Source: a virus. Taken from it: a stretch of 33,211 nucleotides of DNA. The position numbers were made by a program, and so were the translations under genes. Of the stretch, positions 3,602 through 22,583 are shown piece after piece (the first letter of the stretch is position 1; each line of letters opens with the position of its first letter). The notes under the pieces are model-generated. The model saw nothing but the letters and a program-made list of their open reading frames with translations, made no database searches and was not told the DNA's origin. The DNA lies in the IMG/VR virus record IMGVR_UViG_3300013133_000027, positions 1 to 33,211 of that record, one strand, 5' to 3'.

Positions 3602-4231
3602 ATGTCATTTCAACAAATTCCAAACTCTGGGAGTGATGGAAGATTTCTAGATAACTTTAAGGGCAGAATGAGTGGAGGTGGTGTTCGCGCCAATCTCTTT
3701 GAATGCGAAATCGCATTTCCAACCATTGTTCTTCCTAACGGGGTTACTGAAACTAACATTACTGACAAAATTAAATTTTTAGTAAAAGCATCATCTCTTC
3801 CAGCTTCAACAATCACTCCAATTTCTGTTCCCTTTAGAGGTAGAGAACTGAAAATTGCTGGAGACAGAACATTTGAACCGTGGTCAGTTACAGTTATCAA
3901 CGACACTGATTTTTCAATTAGAGGTGCTTTTGAGAGGTGGATTAATTATATGAGCAGATCTTTGGATAATGCTGGAGAGGTTAATCCCGCAACATATCAA
4001 AGAGATGCCTGGGTCTATCAACTTGGACGTGCTGCGATGAATACCGCTGTGGATAGTTCAGATACTATTCCAGTTCTAAGAGCATATCACATGTATGGTG
4101 TTTTCCCAACTAATGTTTCGGCAATCCCAGTTTCCTATGCGGATAATAGTAGTATTGAAGAATTTACAGTAGATCTTCAAGTTCAGTATTGGGAAGCATA
4201 TAATGGTAATAAATCTATCGAAGTTCAGTAG
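3602..4231 (+). CDS. 19: Tail tube protein gp19
   Basis: Subunit of the inner tail tube through which DNA passes, 209 residues (T4: 163). The stretch VPFRGRELKIAGDRTFEPW, followed by SVTVINDTDFSIRGAFERW, is the tube signature and aligns with T4 gp19 (NRKINVAGDRTFDDW). The C-terminus (YGVFPTNVSAIPVSYADN, then VDLQVQYWEAY) also aligns with T4 (LWPTNVGELQLDW, LALDYWE). The start follows GGAG at 3592-3595. A near-match to the late promoter, CATAAATT, lies at 3570-3577 in the gap after gene 18. Another tube-fold protein is encoded at 10088-10657. Confidence 0.94.
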   Translation: MSFQQIPNSGSDGRFLDNFKGRMSGGGVRANLFECEIAFPTIVLPNGVTETNITDKIKFLVKASSLPASTITPISVPFRGRELKIAGDRTFEPWSVTVINDTDFSIRGAFERWINYMSRSLDNAGEVNPATYQRDAWVYQLGRAAMNTAVDSSDTIPVLRAYHMYGVFPTNVSAIPVSYADNSSIEEFTVDLQVQYWEAYNGNKSIEVQ

Positions 4232-10087: not shown

Positions 10088-10657
10088 ATGTCAGCAACAC
10101 CATATAGTAATCAAATAAGTAATCGCAATTATTTGTCCCCAATTGGATTTAAATTTATATTATCAAGATATCCTAAAGTTGATTTCTTTTGCACCAAAGC
10201 CGGTATACCTGGAGTAAATCTTGGTGTTGCAATTCAACCAACATACTTAAAAGATATTCCAATTCCTGGTGATAAATTAGAATACGAAGATTTAGTTTTA
10301 GATTTTTTAGTTGATGAAGATCTAGTTAATTACATTCAGGTATATAACTGGTTAATTGGTTTAGGTTATCCAGAAAATGTTTCACAATTTAATGAGTGGA
10401 GAGCAACGAATACAACAGATCCATCCACAGATGGTAAAGATCTTAGAAACATATATTCGGATGCAACCTTGCAAGTTCTGAATAGTAATTTTCAACCACA
10501 AGCAAATATTAAATTTAGGGATATTTTTCCAACTTCATTAACTGGATTATCGTTTGATACGACGAAAAAAGATTACGACTATTTTACAGCAAGAGTCACT
10601 TTTAAGTATACTATATACAATATAATGGATCAAAATTATAATGAGTATGAACCTTGA
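10088..10657 (+). CDS. Tube-fold tail protein downstream of gene 23
   Basis: A 189-residue protein with the outline of a contractile-tail tube-fold subunit. FKFILSRYPKVDFFCTKAGI starts near residue 19, then PGVNLG, then the block YLKDIPIPGDKLEYEDLVLD, matching the pattern of gp19 (FECEI, SSLPAS, FRGRELKIAGDRTFEPW). It ends with YDYFTARVTFKYTIYNI, a closing beta-strand pair. It is clearly diverged from the gp19 at 3602-4231. Cyanophage genomes carry such a gene just after 23 and, as I recall, annotate it as tail completion protein gp3; I cannot confirm that name from sequence. It overlaps uvsY by 17 bases. It may be a tail terminator or a tube-baseplate adaptor of the gp54/gp48 kind. Confidence 0.7.
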   Translation: MSATPYSNQISNRNYLSPIGFKFILSRYPKVDFFCTKAGIPGVNLGVAIQPTYLKDIPIPGDKLEYEDLVLDFLVDEDLVNYIQVYNWLIGLGYPENVSQFNEWRATNTTDPSTDGKDLRNIYSDATLQVLNSNFQPQANIKFRDIFPTSLTGLSFDTTKKDYDYFTARVTFKYTIYNIMDQNYNEYEP

Positions 10658-14573: not shown

Positions 14574-14845
14574 TGTTTGTTCTAGCTTTAAAGGGTAGAG
14601 AAAACGAGGGTCTTTATTCAGTCGATAATGAAGACGGTGATCGTGTTCTCTATCTGTTTAAAGAGGAAGATGATGCTGAACGATTTGTTGTATTGATGGA
14701 AGCAGACAACTTTCCAAAATTAGTGGTAATAGAAGTTGATGAAGAGTCAACCATTGCAGTGTGTGAGGCAAATCAATATACTTATGTTATAATAGAACCA
14801 GATGACCTTGTAATTCCTCCGAATGATCACATTTCAAAAAATTAG
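14573..14845 (+). CDS. DUF3110 family protein between genes 47 and 46
   Basis: A 90-residue protein: MFVLALKGRENEGLYSV, then VLYLFKEEDDAERFVVLMEA and DDLVIPPNDHISKN. The FEEEDDAxRF and PP-ending pattern is that of DUF3110, a small domain known from cyanobacteria and plants, function unknown. It is acidic and looks cytoplasmic, with no membrane segment. It overlaps gene 47 by one base and gene 46 by 23 bases, so it is translated as part of the resection-nuclease operon. Its presence points to a cyanobacterial host. Whether it affects gp46/47 or mimics a host protein cannot be told from sequence. Confidence 0.7.
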   Translation: MFVLALKGRENEGLYSVDNEDGDRVLYLFKEEDDAERFVVLMEADNFPKLVVIEVDEESTIAVCEANQYTYVIIEPDDLVIPPNDHISKN

Positions 14846-16532
14846 ATGGCGTAATTTTTTAAGTACAGGTAATCAGTTTACAGAAATTAATCTCACTGAA
14901 AAATCAACTACGTCTATTGTTGGTAAAAACGGATCTGGTAAAAGCACAATTTTGGATGCTCTTACTTTTGTTTTATTTAATAAACCTTTTCGTAGGATCA
15001 ATAAACCACAACTTTTAAATTCCACCAATGAAAAAGATTGTTTAGTTGAAATAGAGTTTTCGAGTTCTAATGTAAATTGGATGATTCGTAGAGGAATTAA
15101 ACCTAGTGTATTTGAAATTTATAAGAATGGGAATCTTTTAGAGCAAAGTGCAGATGTTAAAGATGATCAAAAGTTTTTAGAAACTAAAGTTCTCAAATTA
15201 AATTACAAATCTTTTACTCAGATCGTAATTTTGGGATCATCTACATTTGTTCCATTTATGCAGTTGCCTTTGGCATCTAGGAGAGAAATTATTGAAGATC
15301 TATTAGATATCAAGATTTTCTCTATAATGAATTCCGTTCTTAAAGATAAAATTAAAACAACTCAAGAAGAAATCAAGCAACTTAATTATAAGAAGAATAT
15401 AGTTAATGAAAAAACCTCAATGCAAGAAAGTTTTATATATGAATTAGATGTAAAAGGTCAATCAGAAATAACCAGAAAGAATAATAAAATTTTAGAAATA
15501 ACAAACAATATTAAATCAGCAGAAACTATTTGTGTTGAACTGGTAAAAGAGTCTGAGGATATTGATTCCGAAATACAGAAATATGTTAACTGCACAAATA
15601 AATCTAAGAAGTTATATGATCTAAGAGGTAAATTACAAAATAAATTAGATCGGTTGAACAAAGATAAATTGTTTTTTATTGAGAACGAAACATGTCCAAC
15701 ATGTAGTCAAGTTATTGGGGACGATGTAAAATCTCATAAAATTCAAGAGCATGATACTTTTCTTTCAGAAGTAAATGCGGGATTGACTGAACTTGAAAAA
15801 CAACTTGAATTGAATCAAGAAGAGGAGAAAAAACTGGCAAGATTCTCCTCTAAACTTTTAGAGTTGAATAAACAAATAAGAGATATCAATAATAAGTGTA
15901 AGTATGACTCTCAGGTCATAGAAGACATTAAGAATGAAATATTTGATATTGAGCATAACCTCGAAAATAAATTAGAGGAGACTGAAAAACTAAAATCATT
16001 GAAACGTGATGTTAGTTCTATCGAATCTAAATTAAATCAAAAAAGTGAACAGATAAAGTATCATGATTTCATCTATTCCCTTCTCAAAGACAATGGAGTA
16101 AAATCTAAAATCATTAAAAATTATTTACCAGTAATCAATCAACAGGTAAATCGTTTTCTTCAAATGATGGATTTTTACATCAACTTTAATTTTGATGAAG
16201 AATTTAATGAAACTGTGAACACACCAATACATGAAAACTTTTCATATGAATCTTTTAGTGAGGGTGAAAAGCAAAGAATCGATTTGGCCTTGGTGTTTAC
16301 TTGGAGAGAAATTGCACGGATGAAAAATTCTGTAAATACAAATCTTTTAATTTTAGATGAAGTGTTTGATAGTTCTCTTGATATAAATGGAACCGATGAT
16401 TTCTTAAAAATTATTAGATACATAGTTAAAGATGCAAACATTTTTGTTATCTCACACAAATCTGAAATGCATGATAAATTTGAAAATGTTATACAATTTG
16501 ATAAGGTTAAGGGATTTAGCCGGGTTGTGTGA
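14823..16532 (+). CDS. 46: Recombination endonuclease subunit gp46 (Rad50-like)
   Basis: SMC-type ATPase partner of gp47, 569 residues (T4: 560). Walker A is GKNGSGKST (34-42), then the Q-loop region FTQIVILGSSTFVPFM (131-146). A long coiled coil (about 160-450) has a central zinc-hook CPTC at 291-294. The C-terminal lobe has the signature FSEGEKQRIDLAL and Walker B LLILDEVFD, with VISHK as the switch His. All match T4 gp46. The start lies inside the end of the DUF3110 gene. It is followed by a small basic gene and a terminator. Confidence 0.97.
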   Translation: MITFQKIRWRNFLSTGNQFTEINLTEKSTTSIVGKNGSGKSTILDALTFVLFNKPFRRINKPQLLNSTNEKDCLVEIEFSSSNVNWMIRRGIKPSVFEIYKNGNLLEQSADVKDDQKFLETKVLKLNYKSFTQIVILGSSTFVPFMQLPLASRREIIEDLLDIKIFSIMNSVLKDKIKTTQEEIKQLNYKKNIVNEKTSMQESFIYELDVKGQSEITRKNNKILEITNNIKSAETICVELVKESEDIDSEIQKYVNCTNKSKKLYDLRGKLQNKLDRLNKDKLFFIENETCPTCSQVIGDDVKSHKIQEHDTFLSEVNAGLTELEKQLELNQEEEKKLARFSSKLLELNKQIRDINNKCKYDSQVIEDIKNEIFDIEHNLENKLEETEKLKSLKRDVSSIESKLNQKSEQIKYHDFIYSLLKDNGVKSKIIKNYLPVINQQVNRFLQMMDFYINFNFDEEFNETVNTPIHENFSYESFSEGEKQRIDLALVFTWREIARMKNSVNTNLLILDEVFDSSLDINGTDDFLKIIRYIVKDANIFVISHKSEMHDKFENVIQFDKVKGFSRVV

Positions 16533-16561: not shown

Positions 16562-16729
16562 ATGGCAAATCAAGTTCCTAATTGGATTCACCATAGTAAA
16601 AAGGATCAAAAACGAAAATTGAAACCTCAGGCACTTAGACAAGCAAAGGCACGAAGAGGTGCCTTGCTGTGCCGCCTAGACAAGTGTCACAAGACCTCCC
16701 ACAACGGGGGGTCTTTTTTTGTAGTATAG
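16562..16729 (+). CDS. Small basic protein of unknown function
   Basis: A 55-residue, Lys/Arg-rich protein starting MANQVPNWIHHSKKDQKRKL, then ALRQAKARRG. It is not recognised. GGAGA at 16551-16555, seven bases before the ATG, is one of the better ribosome sites in the window, which supports expression. The last 30 codons run through two RNA hairpins, the second a terminator whose T-run encodes Phe-Phe, so the C-terminal part is shaped by RNA structure. Alternatively only the first half is under protein selection. Nucleic-acid binding is possible from its charge but is not shown. Confidence 0.55.
   Translation: MANQVPNWIHHSKKDQKRKLKPQALRQAKARRGALLCRLDKCHKTSHNGGSFFVV
16643..16667 (+). other. 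RNA hairpin inside the small basic gene
   Basis: Arms GCAAAGGCAC and GTGCCTTGC pair over nine bases with one bulged A, closing a GAAGAG loop. No T-run follows. It stands 26 bases before the terminator hairpin. It might protect the 3' end of the 47-46 transcript or assist termination; the function is inferred. Confidence 0.5.
16693..16720 (+). terminator. Intrinsic terminator after gene 46 operon
   Basis: Arms GACCTCCC and GGGGGGTC (one T-G wobble), loop ACAAC, then seven T residues. It lies within the last codons of the small basic gene and 30 bases before the next gene, separating the recombination genes from the HEXXH-VWA gene. Confidence 0.9.
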
Positions 16730-16749: not shown

Positions 16750-18888
16750 ATGCCTGTCAATCACGAAATCAAATCTCAACTCGCCAAACTACTTGCCACT
16801 GAAGATCTGGTGGTTGAACACAAAAAAGTTTCTACTGCTTGTTTTAACGTACATACAAGAGTGTTGACTTTGCCCATGTGGGATAGGGCTAGTAATATTG
16901 TATATGATATGTTGGTTGGTCATGAGGTTGGTCATGCTTTGTATACCAGTTATGATGATTGGAAAAAGGATTTTAAAATTCCAAAATCAATTATGAATAT
17001 TGTAGAAGATGCTCGTATTGAAAAATTGATGAAGCGTCGTTATGCTGGCATTGCTAAAACTTTCTATAATGGATATAAAGAACTTAATGATGAGGATTTC
17101 TTTAGCATCTCTGATACTGATATTTCAAAGATGAATCTTGCCGATAGAGCAAATCTTTTGTTTAAAATTGGTAATTATGTGGATGTTCCTATTAATGAAA
17201 ATGAAACACATATCATTAATATGATTGCTGATGCTGAGACATTTCAAGATGTCGTTGATGCTGCAACTGCACTTTACGAATTTTGTAAAATTGAGGAATC
17301 TACTAAAGGTGAAAATTCTACGAGTTCGGAGAGTTCTAACGAAAATTCTGAGACTCAATCAAGTTCTGAATTTATTGATTCGGAATCCAATGATGATAGT
17401 TCTGAATCCAATGATGATCCTACAGATGTAGATTCAAATGATGAAAAATCATATGGTGGCACCGCAGAAGATCAGTCTGAAGATCAATCTGAAAAAAGCT
17501 TTGTTCCAGAAGTTAAGACTATGGATGCATTGAATGATGCTATTGAAAAACTAATTAGTATGGATGGTGGTGAAAACAATTATATAGAAATTCCTAAACT
17601 AAATCTAGATACAGTTATTATAAAAAATAAAGAAGTTCACGATTGCATTACTCAAAAATGGGAATCTGTCGATGATGAGGCATTCACCTATGTCGATAGT
17701 GAGTATAATAAATTTAAACACAACTCTAAAAAAGAAGTTAGTTATCTCATTAAAGAATTTGAGTGTAAAAAATCTGCAGATCAATATTCTCGTTCTATTA
17801 CCGCTAGAACTGGAGTTCTAAACACATCCAAACTTCATACTTACAAATTCAATGAAGATCTATTCAGAAAAATATCAGTAGTTCCTGATGGTCAAAATCA
17901 TGGATTGATTTTTATTTTGGATTGGTCTGGATCAATGAATAGGGTTATGCTTGATACTATCAAACAATTGTATAATATTTTATGGTTTTGTCAGAAAGTG
18001 AATATTCCATTTGATGTTTATGCTTTTACTGAAGAGTGGTATTATCGATCAATTCAAAATTCAAACGGAGTCCCAACATATCCACAGCCACATTATGAGA
18101 AAGTAGAAAACGTTTTTTCTGTAGGCAATTCATTCTCACTGTTAAACATGCTCAGTAGTGAGGTAAAAACTAAAAATCTTAATGAACAAATGCGTAATAT
18201 TTTTAGAATTGCTTATTCTTTTAATACTTATCATAGTGGATGGGAAGTTCCTAATCAGTTAAGTTTGTCTGGAACACCACTCAATGAAAGTTTAATTGCA
18301 CTACATCAGATTATCCCCCAGTTTAAAATTAAAAACAAACTTCAAAAAACTCATTGCATTGTTCTTACTGACGGGGAGTCATCTCCTATAAACTTCCACG
18401 TCAAAGTTACTCGTAATATTGAAAGTGAATCTTATATTGGAGTGAGATCTATCAATCCAAATTGTTTTATTCGTAATCGAAAAACTGGTATGGTCTATAG
18501 TCTTAAAAATGCACAGGGATATAATTATCATAGTGCATTTACCAATGTACTATTATGTGATCTAAGAGAAACTTTTCCCGATGTAAACTTTATTGGAATT
18601 AGAATTATTCCATGTAGAGATGCTACACACTTTATTCGTTCTAATAGTTCTTGGGATGATTATGATAAATACTGCTCTCAGTGGAAAAAACAACGTAGCG
18701 TAGCATTGTCTGAAAGTGGATATCACAAATATTTTGGAATATCATCTTCGATCCTTTCTAATGATGTTGAATTTCAAGTTGATGAGGATGCAACAAAGTC
18801 TGCAATTAAAAATGCTTTTAAAAAATCTTTGAATTCTAAAAAAATGAATAAAAAGTTTCTAAACGAATTTATTGAATTGGTGGCATAG
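16750..18888 (+). CDS. HEXXH metallopeptidase-like protein with CobT-like VWA domain
   Basis: A 712-residue, three-part protein. Residues 1-180 hold a zinc-metallopeptidase-type motif HEVGH (58-62) followed by NIVEDARIEK (83-92), where E86/D87 could be the third ligand. Residues 182-250 are a Ser/Glu/Asp/Asn low-complexity linker. Residues 385-700 form a von Willebrand A domain with MIDAS DWSGS (391-395), a downstream SGTPLNES Thr, and VLTDGESS. An acidic linker followed by a VWA domain is the layout of CobT, the partner of the CobS ATPase in cobalt chelatase, and a CobS/MoxR-type ATPase lies at 20309-21439. MoxR-VWA pairs in general remodel or insert metal into other proteins. The ATG at 16750 is preferred because the start of similarity is MPVNHEIKSQLAKLL. 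Substrate unknown. Confidence 0.75.
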   Translation: MPVNHEIKSQLAKLLATEDLVVEHKKVSTACFNVHTRVLTLPMWDRASNIVYDMLVGHEVGHALYTSYDDWKKDFKIPKSIMNIVEDARIEKLMKRRYAGIAKTFYNGYKELNDEDFFSISDTDISKMNLADRANLLFKIGNYVDVPINENETHIINMIADAETFQDVVDAATALYEFCKIEESTKGENSTSSESSNENSETQSSSEFIDSESNDDSSESNDDPTDVDSNDEKSYGGTAEDQSEDQSEKSFVPEVKTMDALNDAIEKLISMDGGENNYIEIPKLNLDTVIIKNKEVHDCITQKWESVDDEAFTYVDSEYNKFKHNSKKEVSYLIKEFECKKSADQYSRSITARTGVLNTSKLHTYKFNEDLFRKISVVPDGQNHGLIFILDWSGSMNRVMLDTIKQLYNILWFCQKVNIPFDVYAFTEEWYYRSIQNSNGVPTYPQPHYEKVENVFSVGNSFSLLNMLSSEVKTKNLNEQMRNIFRIAYSFNTYHSGWEVPNQLSLSGTPLNESLIALHQIIPQFKIKNKLQKTHCIVLTDGESSPINFHVKVTRNIESESYIGVRSINPNCFIRNRKTGMVYSLKNAQGYNYHSAFTNVLLCDLRETFPDVNFIGIRIIPCRDATHFIRSNSSWDDYDKYCSQWKKQRSVALSESGYHKYFGISSSILSNDVEFQVDEDATKSAIKNAFKKSLNSKKMNKKFLNEFIELVA

Positions 18889-18896
18889 TATAAATA
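18889..18896 (+). promoter_or_regulatory. Late promoter directly after the VWA gene
   Basis: Exact TATAAATA beginning at the base after the TAG stop, 22 bases before the ATG at 18919. It predicts that the next gene is expressed late, with the virion genes. Confidence 0.75.
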
Positions 18897-18918
18897 ATAC
18901 TAAAAGTCAATTACTATT

Positions 18919-20202
18919 ATGAATTCTCAAGAAATTAAATATCTTACCGAGGCATACTCAAATCTTTATTCTGAGTCTGAAACTGATTGTCAGGAATTGT
19001 ATGATTCTTTTTTAGATTTATGCATTCTTGATGGGGGATTTACTACACTTGAAGAGTGTGAAGATTTTGCAGAAACTTTAGTTGCAGATAATCTTGTTGA
19101 GGATTTCATAATTAATCTTTTGGAGTATTATGAAGTAGAAAATTTAAATGAATCTTTTGAATTTTTGGGTGAAAACAGAGCAGCAGCTCTTAGAGCCGTC
19201 ATTAATGCTTTAAGTTCTGGGGGGAGATTAAAGGCAGGTCTAAAACCATTAACTGCACTTGGTAAAAAACCAGAGACTGTTGTGAAAGGTGCAGCAGCAT
19301 CAACTTCTATTAGAGGCGCAAGAGCACAAAGAACTCCTGTTCCAATACGAGAACCTGGAATATATTTGAAACTGCTTCAGCAAAAAAGAACCCCCAAACC
19401 ACTTTCCCCTCAGGGGCAAGAGATTAAAGATTTGAGTAAAAAGATGGGTGGTGGACTCATGGGGACTAGACCTACCCCCAGACCTAGTGGGGCTCCCGGT
19501 CTTGGAGATCCTATTCAAAAGGCTATTGATTTTGGTAGAAAGTCTAAAGAATCCCAACGTCTTGCTCTTCGTGCTCAACGTATGGCGAAAGATAACTATG
19601 GGAAATTGCTTAACACTCCCTTAGGTAAAGCTGCTGCTACCACTCTCGCCGCCGCTGGTTTTACTGCTGCTGCTACTTCTACTAATGAGAAAAAACCCGC
19701 AGCAAAATCAAATCCAGCAGACAGTGTTGGTAAATACATTACAAAAGATCCTGATGGTACAGTTAGGAACCGTTTAAAAGTCGGTCCAAAAATTGTTGGG
19801 ACTGGTAGTGTTGCTGGTGATTTTGATGCTGCGTTTAAAAAAGCAAGATCTTCTGGTGCCAAGGAGTTTGAATTCCAAGGTAAAAAGTACAATACAAAAG
19901 TAAGAGGTGAGGAAGTTGATTATTTTGATGTTGTTATGAATCATTTAATTTCTGAAGGATATGTTGATACGAATGAGGATGCTTTGGTTATGATGTCTGC
20001 TTTAGATGAAAATGCAATTGCTAGAATTGCTGCTTTATCTGAGCAGAAATATAGAATTATTAATAAGGATGGCACTGAAACCATATCAGACACTCCTCTT
20101 TATACTGGGTCGGGGGCTGCATCAACAGTAAAACCAATACCTACTACAGTAAAACGTAAATATGAAAATCCTTACAGACCAAGAGCTGGCGAATCTGATT
20201 AA
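18919..20202 (+). CDS. Putative internal virion protein, gp21-processed type
   Basis: A 427-residue protein not recognised by family name. The acidic N-terminus begins MNSQEIKYLTEAYSNLYSE and is rich in Glu/Asp up to about residue 90. A basic, Pro/Gly/Ala/Arg-rich middle (about 95-240) contains an Ala-rich stretch (AAATTLAAAGFTAAA) that could be a short hydrophobic segment. A C-terminal domain has GEEVDYFDVVMNHLISEGY. The N-terminal LTEAY pattern is familiar from many structural proteins of marine T4-like phages. LTE, ISE and LSE tripeptides are potential gp21 cleavage sites, as in T4 internal proteins packaged with the core. The TATAAATA promoter supports late expression. The virion role is inferred. 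Confidence 0.6.
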   Translation: MNSQEIKYLTEAYSNLYSESETDCQELYDSFLDLCILDGGFTTLEECEDFAETLVADNLVEDFIINLLEYYEVENLNESFEFLGENRAAALRAVINALSSGGRLKAGLKPLTALGKKPETVVKGAAASTSIRGARAQRTPVPIREPGIYLKLLQQKRTPKPLSPQGQEIKDLSKKMGGGLMGTRPTPRPSGAPGLGDPIQKAIDFGRKSKESQRLALRAQRMAKDNYGKLLNTPLGKAAATTLAAAGFTAAATSTNEKKPAAKSNPADSVGKYITKDPDGTVRNRLKVGPKIVGTGSVAGDFDAAFKKARSSGAKEFEFQGKKYNTKVRGEEVDYFDVVMNHLISEGYVDTNEDALVMMSALDENAIARIAALSEQKYRIINKDGTETISDTPLYTGSGAASTVKPIPTTVKRKYENPYRPRAGESD

Positions 20203-20273
20203 TTTTTTACGCAAGAGACACTTTTCAAACTGGCACAAGAAACCTCTGATTCCATTGAATGCGAGTATGATAT

Positions 20274-20300
20274 AAGAGTTCAAAAGAAAACTCAACTCTT
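20274..20300 (+). other. Inverted repeat in the leader of the CobS/MoxR gene
   Basis: AAGAGTT and AACTCTT are perfect 7-base arms around a 13-base loop, ending 8 bases before the ATG at 20309, where a ribosome site would be expected and none is seen. It overlaps a TATAAG that could be a weak -10. It could be a translational or transcriptional operator; there is no T-run, so it is not a standard terminator. The rest of the 106-base gap shows nothing further. Confidence 0.4.
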
Positions 20301-20308
20301 AATAAATC

Positions 20309-21439
20309 ATGCCTACCAACAATTCCACGATGGATAATCAAGTAATTGCTGAACTGAAATCTATGTTTGGTACTAATTTGACATCTGGTGATATTCGAGG
20401 ATTTTGCGCGTCTCGTAATCTTAACTATCAGACGGTAACTCGTCGTCTTGAAAATTTTAAGATTGGTCGTGGTCGTTGGAATCTGGAAGTCACACAACAA
20501 AAAGTTGAAGAGATCGAACGTACTTTCCAAGCACCTGCTGTTCTCCCATCTACATCACAAAATCTTATTCCTGTTAAAGATGATACCTTCGTCAAGTTTG
20601 GTAACTTTAACGATATTAAACTTATTATTCAATCCAATCTCTTTTACCCTACGTTCATTACGGGTCTTTCTGGTAATGGTAAGACGCTTAGTGTTGAGCA
20701 AGCGTGTTCTCAACTTAAAAGGGAATTAATTCGTGTCAATGTTACAATCGAAACTGATGAGGACGATCTTATTGGGGGTTTCCGCCTTATTAATGGCGAG
20801 ACAGTGTGGTACAATGGACCCGTCATCGAAGCACTCGAACGTGGCGCAATCCTACTTCTGGATGAAATTGACCTTGCATCTAATAAAATTCTTTGCCTCC
20901 AATCCGTCCTAGAAGGCAAGGGCGTCTTCCTTAAGAAGATTGGTCGTTTCGTAAAACCCACTGCTGGTTTTAATGTGGTTGCGACTGCAAACACCAAAGG
21001 TAAGGGTAGTGAGGATGGCCGTTTCATTGGCACCAATGTGCTCAACGAGGCATTCCTAGAGCGTTTCCCTGTGACCTTTGAGCAATCTTACCCTTCCTCT
21101 ACGGTTGAACAAAAGATTTTGGAAGGTGTTGCTTTGGATCTAGGTATTGAGGAACGTGATTTTTGTAAGCGTTTAGTTGACTGGGCCGATATTATCCGTA
21201 AGACCTTCTATGATGGTGGTATTGAGGAAATCATCAGTACCCGTCGTCTTGTTCACATCATTCGTGCCTACAGTATTTTCCAAAATAAAGCAAAGGCAAT
21301 TCAAGTATGTGTGAATCGTTTTGACGATGAAACCAAACAATCCTTCCTAGAACTGTATGATAAAGTGGATGCTGATTTTGTTATGCCATCCACTGAACTT
21401 GAACTAACGATTGAAGGTGGTCATCAAGTTGACCTGTAG
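20309..21439 (+). CDS. cobS: AAA+ ATPase, CobS/MoxR type
   Basis: A 376-residue AAA+ ATPase. Residues 10-60 look like a helix-turn-helix-type N-terminal domain (SGDIRGFCASRNLNYQTVTR). Walker A is GLSGNGKT (119-126), and the conserved DEDDLIGGFRL and TVWYNGPVIEALERGAI follow. Walker B is LLLDEIDLA (182-190), sensor 1 lies in FNVVATANT, and the Arg finger region is NEAFLERFP. The YNGPxxEA and DEID blocks are those of the CobS/CbbQ/MoxR branch. Cyanophage homologues are usually annotated cobS, but chelatase activity is not demonstrated here. A CobT-like VWA protein is encoded one gene upstream. Of 21 Arg codons 18 are CGT and none AGA, unlike its neighbours. A second ATG lies at codon 8. Confidence 0.85.
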   Translation: MPTNNSTMDNQVIAELKSMFGTNLTSGDIRGFCASRNLNYQTVTRRLENFKIGRGRWNLEVTQQKVEEIERTFQAPAVLPSTSQNLIPVKDDTFVKFGNFNDIKLIIQSNLFYPTFITGLSGNGKTLSVEQACSQLKRELIRVNVTIETDEDDLIGGFRLINGETVWYNGPVIEALERGAILLLDEIDLASNKILCLQSVLEGKGVFLKKIGRFVKPTAGFNVVATANTKGKGSEDGRFIGTNVLNEAFLERFPVTFEQSYPSSTVEQKILEGVALDLGIEERDFCKRLVDWADIIRKTFYDGGIEEIISTRRLVHIIRAYSIFQNKAKAIQVCVNRFDDETKQSFLELYDKVDADFVMPSTELELTIEGGHQVDL

Positions 21440-21457
21440 TTGATTGTATGTTATAAT
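21429..21457 (+). promoter_or_regulatory. Sigma70-type (early) promoter for the clamp/clamp-loader genes
   Basis: TTGACC (21429-21434) inside the last codons of the CobS/MoxR gene, a 17-base spacer, and TATAAT (21452-21457). The predicted start near 21464 leaves a leader of only about 8 bases, with GGAAGG (21461-21466) at its very beginning. It would drive 45-44-62-regA early. Confidence 0.8.
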
Positions 21458-21896: not shown

Positions 21897-22583
21897 ATGA
21901 AATTGAATCCTACTATGAAATTCTCAAACACTACTATTGATATTCTTAAGAATTTTAATTCAATCAACCAATCTCTATTGTTTAGGGAAGGTAATGTAAT
22001 TCGCACCATGTCAGTATTGAAAAATATTTTAGCGGAGGCAGTTATTGAAGAGGAACTTCCTAAAGAATTTGCCATCTATGATTTGGGACAATTTATTAAT
22101 GGACTAGAACTTCAGCCAGATGCTCAGTTAGATTTTTCTCATGATTCATATGTGTTAATTAAAGACGAGTTTGATAACAAAACAAAATACTATTATTCAA
22201 GTCCAACTGTGATTATCAGTCCACCTGATAAACCTATGCAGTTGCCAACTGAAGATATTTGTTTTCAGATTGATTCCTCACAACTAAAAAAGTTGCTTAG
22301 AGCATCTTCTACATACAGAGTTCAAGATCTTTGTGCTATTGGAGATGGAAGCACTATCCGATTGGTTGTCAAGGATAAAGAAAATAAAACATCAAACGAA
22401 TATTCAATTAATGTAGGAACTACAGATAAAGTGTTTTCTATGAATTTTAAAGTAGAGAATATAAAAATCATTTTTGGAAAATATGATGTTGTGATTTCTA
22501 ACAAAGGCATTTCTAAATTCACAAATGTCAGTCGAAACCTGGTATACTACATTGCGTTAGAACCAGACTCAACTTTCGAATGA
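21897..22583 (+). CDS. 45: Sliding clamp gp45
   Basis: Trimeric DNA polymerase processivity clamp and late-transcription co-activator, 228 residues. Similarity to T4 gp45 (228 aa) runs from FSNTTIDILKNFNSIN (T4 LSKDTTALLKNFATIN), through FAIYDLGQFINGL and ISPPDKPMQLP, to LVYYIALEPDSTFE (T4 NYVVALEADSTHD). The ATG at 21897 directly follows the previous stop; an ATG at 21915 (MKFSNTT) would give the T4-like N-terminus, so the first six residues are uncertain. It overlaps the next gene by ATGA at 22580-22583. It should work with gp44/62, gp43 and gp55 encoded in the same window. Confidence 0.95.
   Translation: MKLNPTMKFSNTTIDILKNFNSINQSLLFREGNVIRTMSVLKNILAEAVIEEELPKEFAIYDLGQFINGLELQPDAQLDFSHDSYVLIKDEFDNKTKYYYSSPTVIISPPDKPMQLPTEDICFQIDSSQLKKLLRASSTYRVQDLCAIGDGSTIRLVVKDKENKTSNEYSINVGTTDKVFSMNFKVENIKIIFGKYDVVISNKGISKFTNVSRNLVYYIALEPDSTFE

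Follow-up and report, generated by a model that had tools for sequence, protein, structure and literature searches.

The virus record analysed here (IMG/VR record IMGVR_UViG_3300013133_000027; the window) is a 33,211-base sequence from a T4-like cyanophage that encodes a 712-residue protein, in which an HExxH motif is combined with a von Willebrand factor A (VWA) domain, and a CobS-like AAA+ ATPase. The two genes are real and conserved and behave as one module, and the N-terminal domain of the VWA protein is, going by its motifs, the probable metal-dependent effector. Taken as a whole, the pair is best explained as an AAA+/VWA remodelling machine of the MoxR class rather than a cobaltochelatase, with a target that may belong to the DNA phase; we assign this combined reading a probability of roughly 0.55. 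Its first component, a remodelling module as opposed to a chelatase, we regard as quite probable.

A first-pass annotation of the window, made from the sequence alone, had described an HEVGH motif, a VEDAR motif, an acidic linker and a VWA domain with a metal ion-dependent adhesion site (MIDAS) in the 712-residue protein, and a CobS/MoxR-type AAA+ gene one gene downstream. All of these features are present where it placed them (Table 1), the two partners being separated by an open reading frame (ORF) of 427 residues. In the predicted model of the VWA protein, an N-terminal domain extending to about residue 188 is followed by a low-confidence linker (residues 189-255), a helical section and the VWA domain from about residue 384. 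The HExxH motif and a downstream glutamate on a second helix, 24 residues apart in the model, have the arrangement of a gluzincin-type zincin, with Glu86 as the candidate third ligand. The N-terminal domain is homologous to that of CobT, including an aligned E..R.E helix, and scores 16.5 bits against the Pfam CobT N-domain (PF06213), below the cut-off of 26.1.

The AAA+ protein passes the Pfam cut-offs for AAA_5 (59.2 bits against 22; 5.8e-16) and CbbQ_C (24.1 against 20.6). Together with a neighbouring VWA protein with an intact MIDAS, these are features of MoxR AAA+/VWA modules of the CbbQO and NorQD type. Its score against the CobS equivalog TIGR01650 is far below the cut-off (67.1 bits against 558.55). 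Structure prediction of the single proteins, which the earlier annotation had proposed, placed the AAA+ protein nearest to the NorQ fold, with matches up to E 3.3e-15 for a model of modest quality (predicted local distance difference test score (pLDDT) 71.7, predicted TM-score 0.45). The VWA part came out nearest to the VWA domain of NorD, its best fold match in the PDB (E 3.9e-06); a PDB sequence search with the VWA protein returned nothing meaningful. The N-terminal helical domain of the AAA+ protein (residues 1-60, positions 20309-20488) varies strongly between family members and the ATPase core is nearly fixed.

Conservation of the motifs was assessed in a viral scan that used search peptides without HExxH or MIDAS and was therefore unbiased with respect to both. 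HExxH and ED.R were found in 36/36 complete N-domains, and the MIDAS in 39/39 VWA domains, even in sequences only about 30% identical. As the motifs are kept in all scanned domains, they are not chance occurrences, and the loss from most homologues that would have spoken against a module was not seen. An AAA+ gene lies nearby in all 34 viral loci with enough flanking sequence to be testable, downstream in 33 and upstream in one. A second viral scan found 66 of 66 loci paired; its search pattern contained HExxH, so that its HExxH count of 80/80 is not independent evidence. Relatives in bacterial assemblies, which are probably mostly phage contigs, are paired in 17 of 18 cases, with HExxH in 25/25 and the plain MIDAS pattern in 19/21; the reading frame of the sole unpaired relative (L072) stops after the N-domain. 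Among INPHARED records the peptidase was matched in 463 and the AAA+ protein in 713, but at a query coverage of at least 80% the counts are 456 versus 458, and they are equal for records named Synechococcus, Cyanophage or Prochlorococcus. One gene without the other at high frequency was thus not observed, and the near-perfect co-occurrence and adjacency bear out the earlier proposal of a functional module. The ratio of nonsynonymous to synonymous substitutions is about 0.23 and 0.30 against relatives of 96% and 73% identity, and well below 1 for both genes, the AAA+ gene being compared in part. Sullivan 2010 (PMC3037559) listed cobS among 25 cyanophage core genes and found the peptidases so diverged that those of P-HM1 and P-HM2 fell into separate clusters.

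Some relatives show departures from the usual arrangement. In four loci (L020, L066, L061 and L062) gene order or orientation is reversed or divergent, with the partners still together. Two phage-type pairs (L055, L060) come from the assemblies of a Prochlorococcus single cell and a Nonlabens isolate, where they lie on contigs of 188-189 kb that are perhaps whole phage genomes. A Staphylococcus Kayvirus AAA+ match was rejected as a further pair: its 682-residue neighbour is not an HExxH-VWA protein, and the AAA+ protein has no canonical Walker A motif.

The cyanophage pair has been interpreted as a viral CobST that replaces the CobS and CobT missing in cyanobacterial hosts, docks on host CobN and raises cobalamin output. 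Liu 2021 (PMC8651126), who described the pairing in tailed viruses, took the cyanophage peptidase to be a misannotated CobT that hijacks host CobN. Cyanobacteria possess cobN but neither cobS nor cobT (PMC9227772), so that use of host CobN remains compatible with our data, and PF02514 matched twice in one Prochlorococcus genome. The protein of phage SSU5 is a strong Pfam CobT (N-domain 2e-37, CobT_C 2e-112), yet it carries HEVAH and EDVFIE. Against these points, HExxH is kept throughout the cyanophage family and is absent at the aligned site in 30/30 cobaltochelatase CobTs, all sampled from the alphaproteobacteria, which typically read ADAIAL (e.g. RGEADAIALR). The solved CobT 9uka also has no HExxH, although the alignment is weak. 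The window proteins score far under the CobS and CobT equivalog cut-offs.

The first-pass annotation had noted no CobN-like subunit in the window, and our search found none. CobN is likewise absent from 15/15 complete phage and plasmid records that carry the pair or a cousin of it, and from 7/8 cellular genomes with an HExxH cousin. HExxH cousins occur in E. coli-borne elements, and E. coli, a host of IncC and SSU5-type elements, was among the control genomes and gave no CobN match, with PF00268 matching there. No class II (B12-dependent) ribonucleotide reductase (RNR) scored over the cut-off in the phages with the pair. SAR11 bacteria, which relatives also infect, are not known to make B12 de novo. 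In a quick tree, true CobT forms one clade (100) beside the HExxH-bearing CRP-810 protein (96), a grouping that favours viral CobST. The distribution of HExxH on this tree needs three changes, and the very long branches and lack of an outgroup leave their direction unspecified; the tree is weakly compatible with three losses, true CobT being one. Given the missing CobN, the lack of a B12-dependent RNR over the cut-off, the missing HExxH in true CobTs and the cousins in hosts without CobN, reading cobS as a lone cobalamin gene is probably wrong, as the earlier annotation had suspected. We consider the viral CobST explanation improbable.

A different possibility is that the pair works like NorQD, which inserts iron into the nitric oxide reductase cNOR (PMC9976466, PMC13036017). 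A metal held at the HExxH...E site would then be passed on to a metalloenzyme of phage or host, such as NrdB, the small subunit of class I RNR. NrdB is indeed encoded by 11 of the 14 tested phages with the pair, but it is missing from CRP-810, ICP2, Kvothe and the IncC plasmid, all of which carry the pair or a cousin, and this rules it out as a universal target. Phages that do not carry the pair, T4 among them, have NrdB too. Moreover, a pure metal carrier has no obvious need for the invariant catalytic-type glutamate of HExxH. Metal insertion is therefore, in our judgement, rather unlikely.

The gene neighbourhood gives a hint of the class of target. The pair is flanked by gp46/gp47 and gp45 in cyanophages, HTVC008M and OC, with gp44/gp62 beyond in the T4-like phages. 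UvsX and a primase-helicase are encoded upstream of the pair in DLP6; the pair sits beside DNA ligase and DNA polymerase genes in SSU5, nickie and RHEph10, near a helicase and a DNA polymerase in ANB28 and near denV in CRP-810, and it precedes primase, helicase and polymerase in ICP2. The chromosomal HExxH cousins of Vibrio and Vreelandella occur with RecT, YqaJ and DUF3150 genes, and the same kind of cluster (ssb-bet-exo-DUF3150-VWA) is found on the IncC plasmid. An HExxH-VWA cousin was detected in 1,336 plasmid records; a plasmid search with the window protein itself gave no match. It is mainly because of these repeated replication and recombination neighbours in unrelated elements that we tentatively place the target in replication or recombination, at somewhat less than even odds.

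For T4-related jumbo phages of group 2.2, Iyer 2021 (PMC7824862) described a metallopeptidase, fused to the N-terminal side of a vWA domain and paired with MoxR, and proposed a role in virion assembly with proteolytic processing of structural proteins; the MoxR-VWA pair of Acidianus two-tailed virus may be compared. The described architecture is the same as that of our pair, T4-like maturation involves proteolysis, and a late-promoter-like TATAAATA between the genes could drive late transcription of cobS. However, the pair sits in the replication and recombination cluster, apart from the head and tail genes of the window, which already include a gp21-type head protease, and the cousins on IncC plasmids belong to elements that have no virion. 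A virion assembly chaperone is thus an unlikely explanation.

In the mechanism that we favour for the remodelling machine, the CobS-like protein would assemble into a ring powered by ATP and engage the partner's VWA domain, whose MIDAS would grip a target protein. ATP-driven motion would be relayed through the acidic, flexible linker to the HExxH...E domain at the N-terminus, and this domain would act on the target, metal-dependent proteolysis being the most likely activity; the best candidate for the target would be a protein of the DNA replication or recombination phase. Engagement of the VWA domain by the ring, the MIDAS grip and stretching of the linker are suggested by analogy with NorQD. 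In NorD a flexible linker joins an N-domain to a VWA domain, and NorQ rotates the VWA domain and stretches the linker (PMC13036017); target maturation, unlike the binding of NorQ, requires the MIDAS (PMC9976466). Catalysis is suggested by the motif, and we see even odds that the N-domain is a working peptidase.

Several observations weigh against this mechanism or its proposed target. The Foldseek matches listed for the full-length model include no solved zincin. HExxH is degenerate in two divergent phage lineages, nickie (SEISK) and ANB28 (REVST), and therefore catalysis is not essential everywhere; ICP2 has HECYH and no clear ED.R motif. Judging from these motifs, some divergent branches, none of which belongs to the cyanophage branch, can do without the HExxH site. 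Kvothe has no annotated replication neighbour, and the pair may lie among replication genes because of when it is expressed and not because of what it does; published transcription timing for the pair was not found in the literature searched. In the SXT integrative and conjugative element, deletions of bet, exo, s067, s068 and s070, some of which may encode the cousins, altered transfer by at most 10-fold (PMC2791158).

A broader and distinctly speculative interpretation, which we think unlikely, is that the pair belongs to a family of ATP-driven HExxH proteases of mobile elements that remove or process DNA-associated proteins while replication and recombination proceed. On this view the cobaltochelatase CobT of B12 makers would have arisen from within the family by loss of HExxH, with which the quick tree is weakly compatible, and the family would be, in working style, a prokaryotic counterpart of SPRTN with p97.

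The coordinates of the pair and the features around it are collected in Table 1. Gene order in the window runs from tail sheath and tube through portal, gp21-type protease, scaffold, major head protein, UvsY, a UvsW-type helicase, gp55, gp47 and gp46 to the pair, followed by gp45, gp44, gp62, RegA, DNA polymerase and UvsX. Two genes of the tail-tube family PHROG_45 are present, one before the portal gene (3602-4231) and one after that of the major head protein (10088-10657). The preferred start of the VWA protein is ATG 16750, which yields 712 residues; GTG 16669 is possible, but an ORF starting there would span the strong hairpin at 16691-16715. A short basic ORF of about 55 residues (16562-16729) overlaps this hairpin with its 3' end. 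At the 3' end of the AAA+ gene is a near-consensus sigma-70 promoter (TTGACC-17-TATAAT, extended -10; 21429-21457), with a DUF3310 gene and gp45 directly beyond. A search for PADLOC defence families gave zero matches.

The 427-residue ORF is not a conserved part of the module: it is replaced or absent in other phages and almost without database relatives, with partial matches in only five phage records. It begins with LTEAYSNLY, a start that, in our impression, recalls cyanophage structural proteins. The TATAAATA site lies before it. Four of the six sites of this type in the window directly precede an ORF, and their count is not above chance.

Table 1. Features of the HExxH-VWA/AAA+ pair and its surroundings in the window.
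Feature	Position	Strand	Remarks
gp46 recombination endonuclease subunit	14823..16532	+	PHROG_77; upstream of pair
Terminator-like hairpin with T-run	16691..16715	+	Between gp46 and module; strong
HExxH-VWA protein ('peptidase', T4-GC 146 / PHROG_459), 712 aa	16750..18888	+	Full-length PHROG_459 match, E 3e-257
HEVGH, residues 58-62, predicted metal site	16921..16935	+	H58, E59, H62 invariant in alignments; helix 49-65 of model
VEDAR, residues 85-89 (within VEDARIE)	17002..17016	+	E86, D87, R89 invariant; helix 79-97; aligns with E..R.E helix of true CobT
Acidic Ser/Glu/Asp linker, ~residues 189-255	17314..17514	+	Low confidence: pLDDT ~30 over 189-249; position matches NorD linker (PMC13036017)
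VWA domain, ~residues 384-620	17899..18609	+	MIDAS D391/S393/S395, T509, D541 invariant
MIDAS DWSGS, residues 391-395	17920..17934	+	T509 and D541 are the remaining MIDAS residues
TATAAATA, T4-type late-promoter-like site	18889..18896	+	Between VWA gene and 427-aa ORF
427-aa ORF, function unassigned	18919..20202	+	Between VWA and AAA+ genes; PHROG: no match
CobS/CbbQ/NorQ-class AAA+ ATPase (T4-GC 150 / PHROG_249 'porphyrin biosynthesis'), 376 aa	20309..21439	+	Full-length PHROG_249 match
Walker A GLSGNGKT, residues 119-126	20663..20686	+	Invariant in alignment
Walker B LLLDE, residues 182-186	20852..20866	+	Invariant in alignment
gp45 sliding clamp	21897..22583	+	Pfam gp45-slide_C and PHROG_223; downstream of pair

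The interpretation put forward in the first-pass annotation is thus supported in part. cobS is a core cyanophage gene that is often read as an auxiliary metabolic gene for vitamin B12. Should the pair prove to be a machine for remodelling or proteolysis, these very abundant marine viruses have been misread in metabolic terms, and the faster-evolving partner, usually called just 'peptidase', becomes one half of a conserved machine that has cousins on IncC plasmids. A few mutants are now enough to tell the B12 reading from the peptidase/chaperone reading. The cyanophage pair itself is already known, as are the metallopeptidase-vWA/MoxR kind of jumbo phages (Iyer 2021) and viral cobST (Liu 2021). 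What looks new are the tests that separate the B12 from the peptidase/chaperone readings and the replication/recombination link that reaches IncC plasmids, neither of which we found stated in the literature searched.

Among known systems, cobaltochelatase CobS-CobT shares with the window pair the homologous CobT N-domain with its E..R.E helix, the C-terminal VWA domain and the AAA+ partner, but true CobT has no HExxH, and the window proteins have no CobN partner and score well under the equivalog cut-offs. The cluster of IncC plasmids and SXT-R391-type elements (AAA - ssb - bet - exo - DUF3150 - HExxH-VWA) has HExxH, ED.RIE, a VWA domain and a CobS-like AAA+ protein in common with our pair; it differs in that the AAA+ gene is several genes away and in the presence of DUF3150. 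DUF3150 as a third universal partner was not found in eight phages, in a search that gave no positive-control match. NorQ-NorD, which serves iron insertion into nitric oxide reductase, provides the best PDB matches and shares the AAA+ class and fold, the layout of N-domain, linker and VWA domain, and the MIDAS; its target is different, and the window VWA protein has no PDB sequence match. The MoxR/metallopeptidase-vWA pair of group 2.2 jumbo phages (ASV44729/ASV44728) has, by its description, the same architecture of an N-terminal metallopeptidase and vWA with a MoxR neighbour; cyanophages and OC are placed in group 2.1 (PMC7824862). Closest of all is the pair of T4-like cyanophages, T4-GC 146/PHROG_459 and T4-GC 150/PHROG_249, with the same genes in the same place between gp46 and gp45 and full-length matches to both; the window adds the 427-residue ORF between the partners, and otherwise nothing essential differs.

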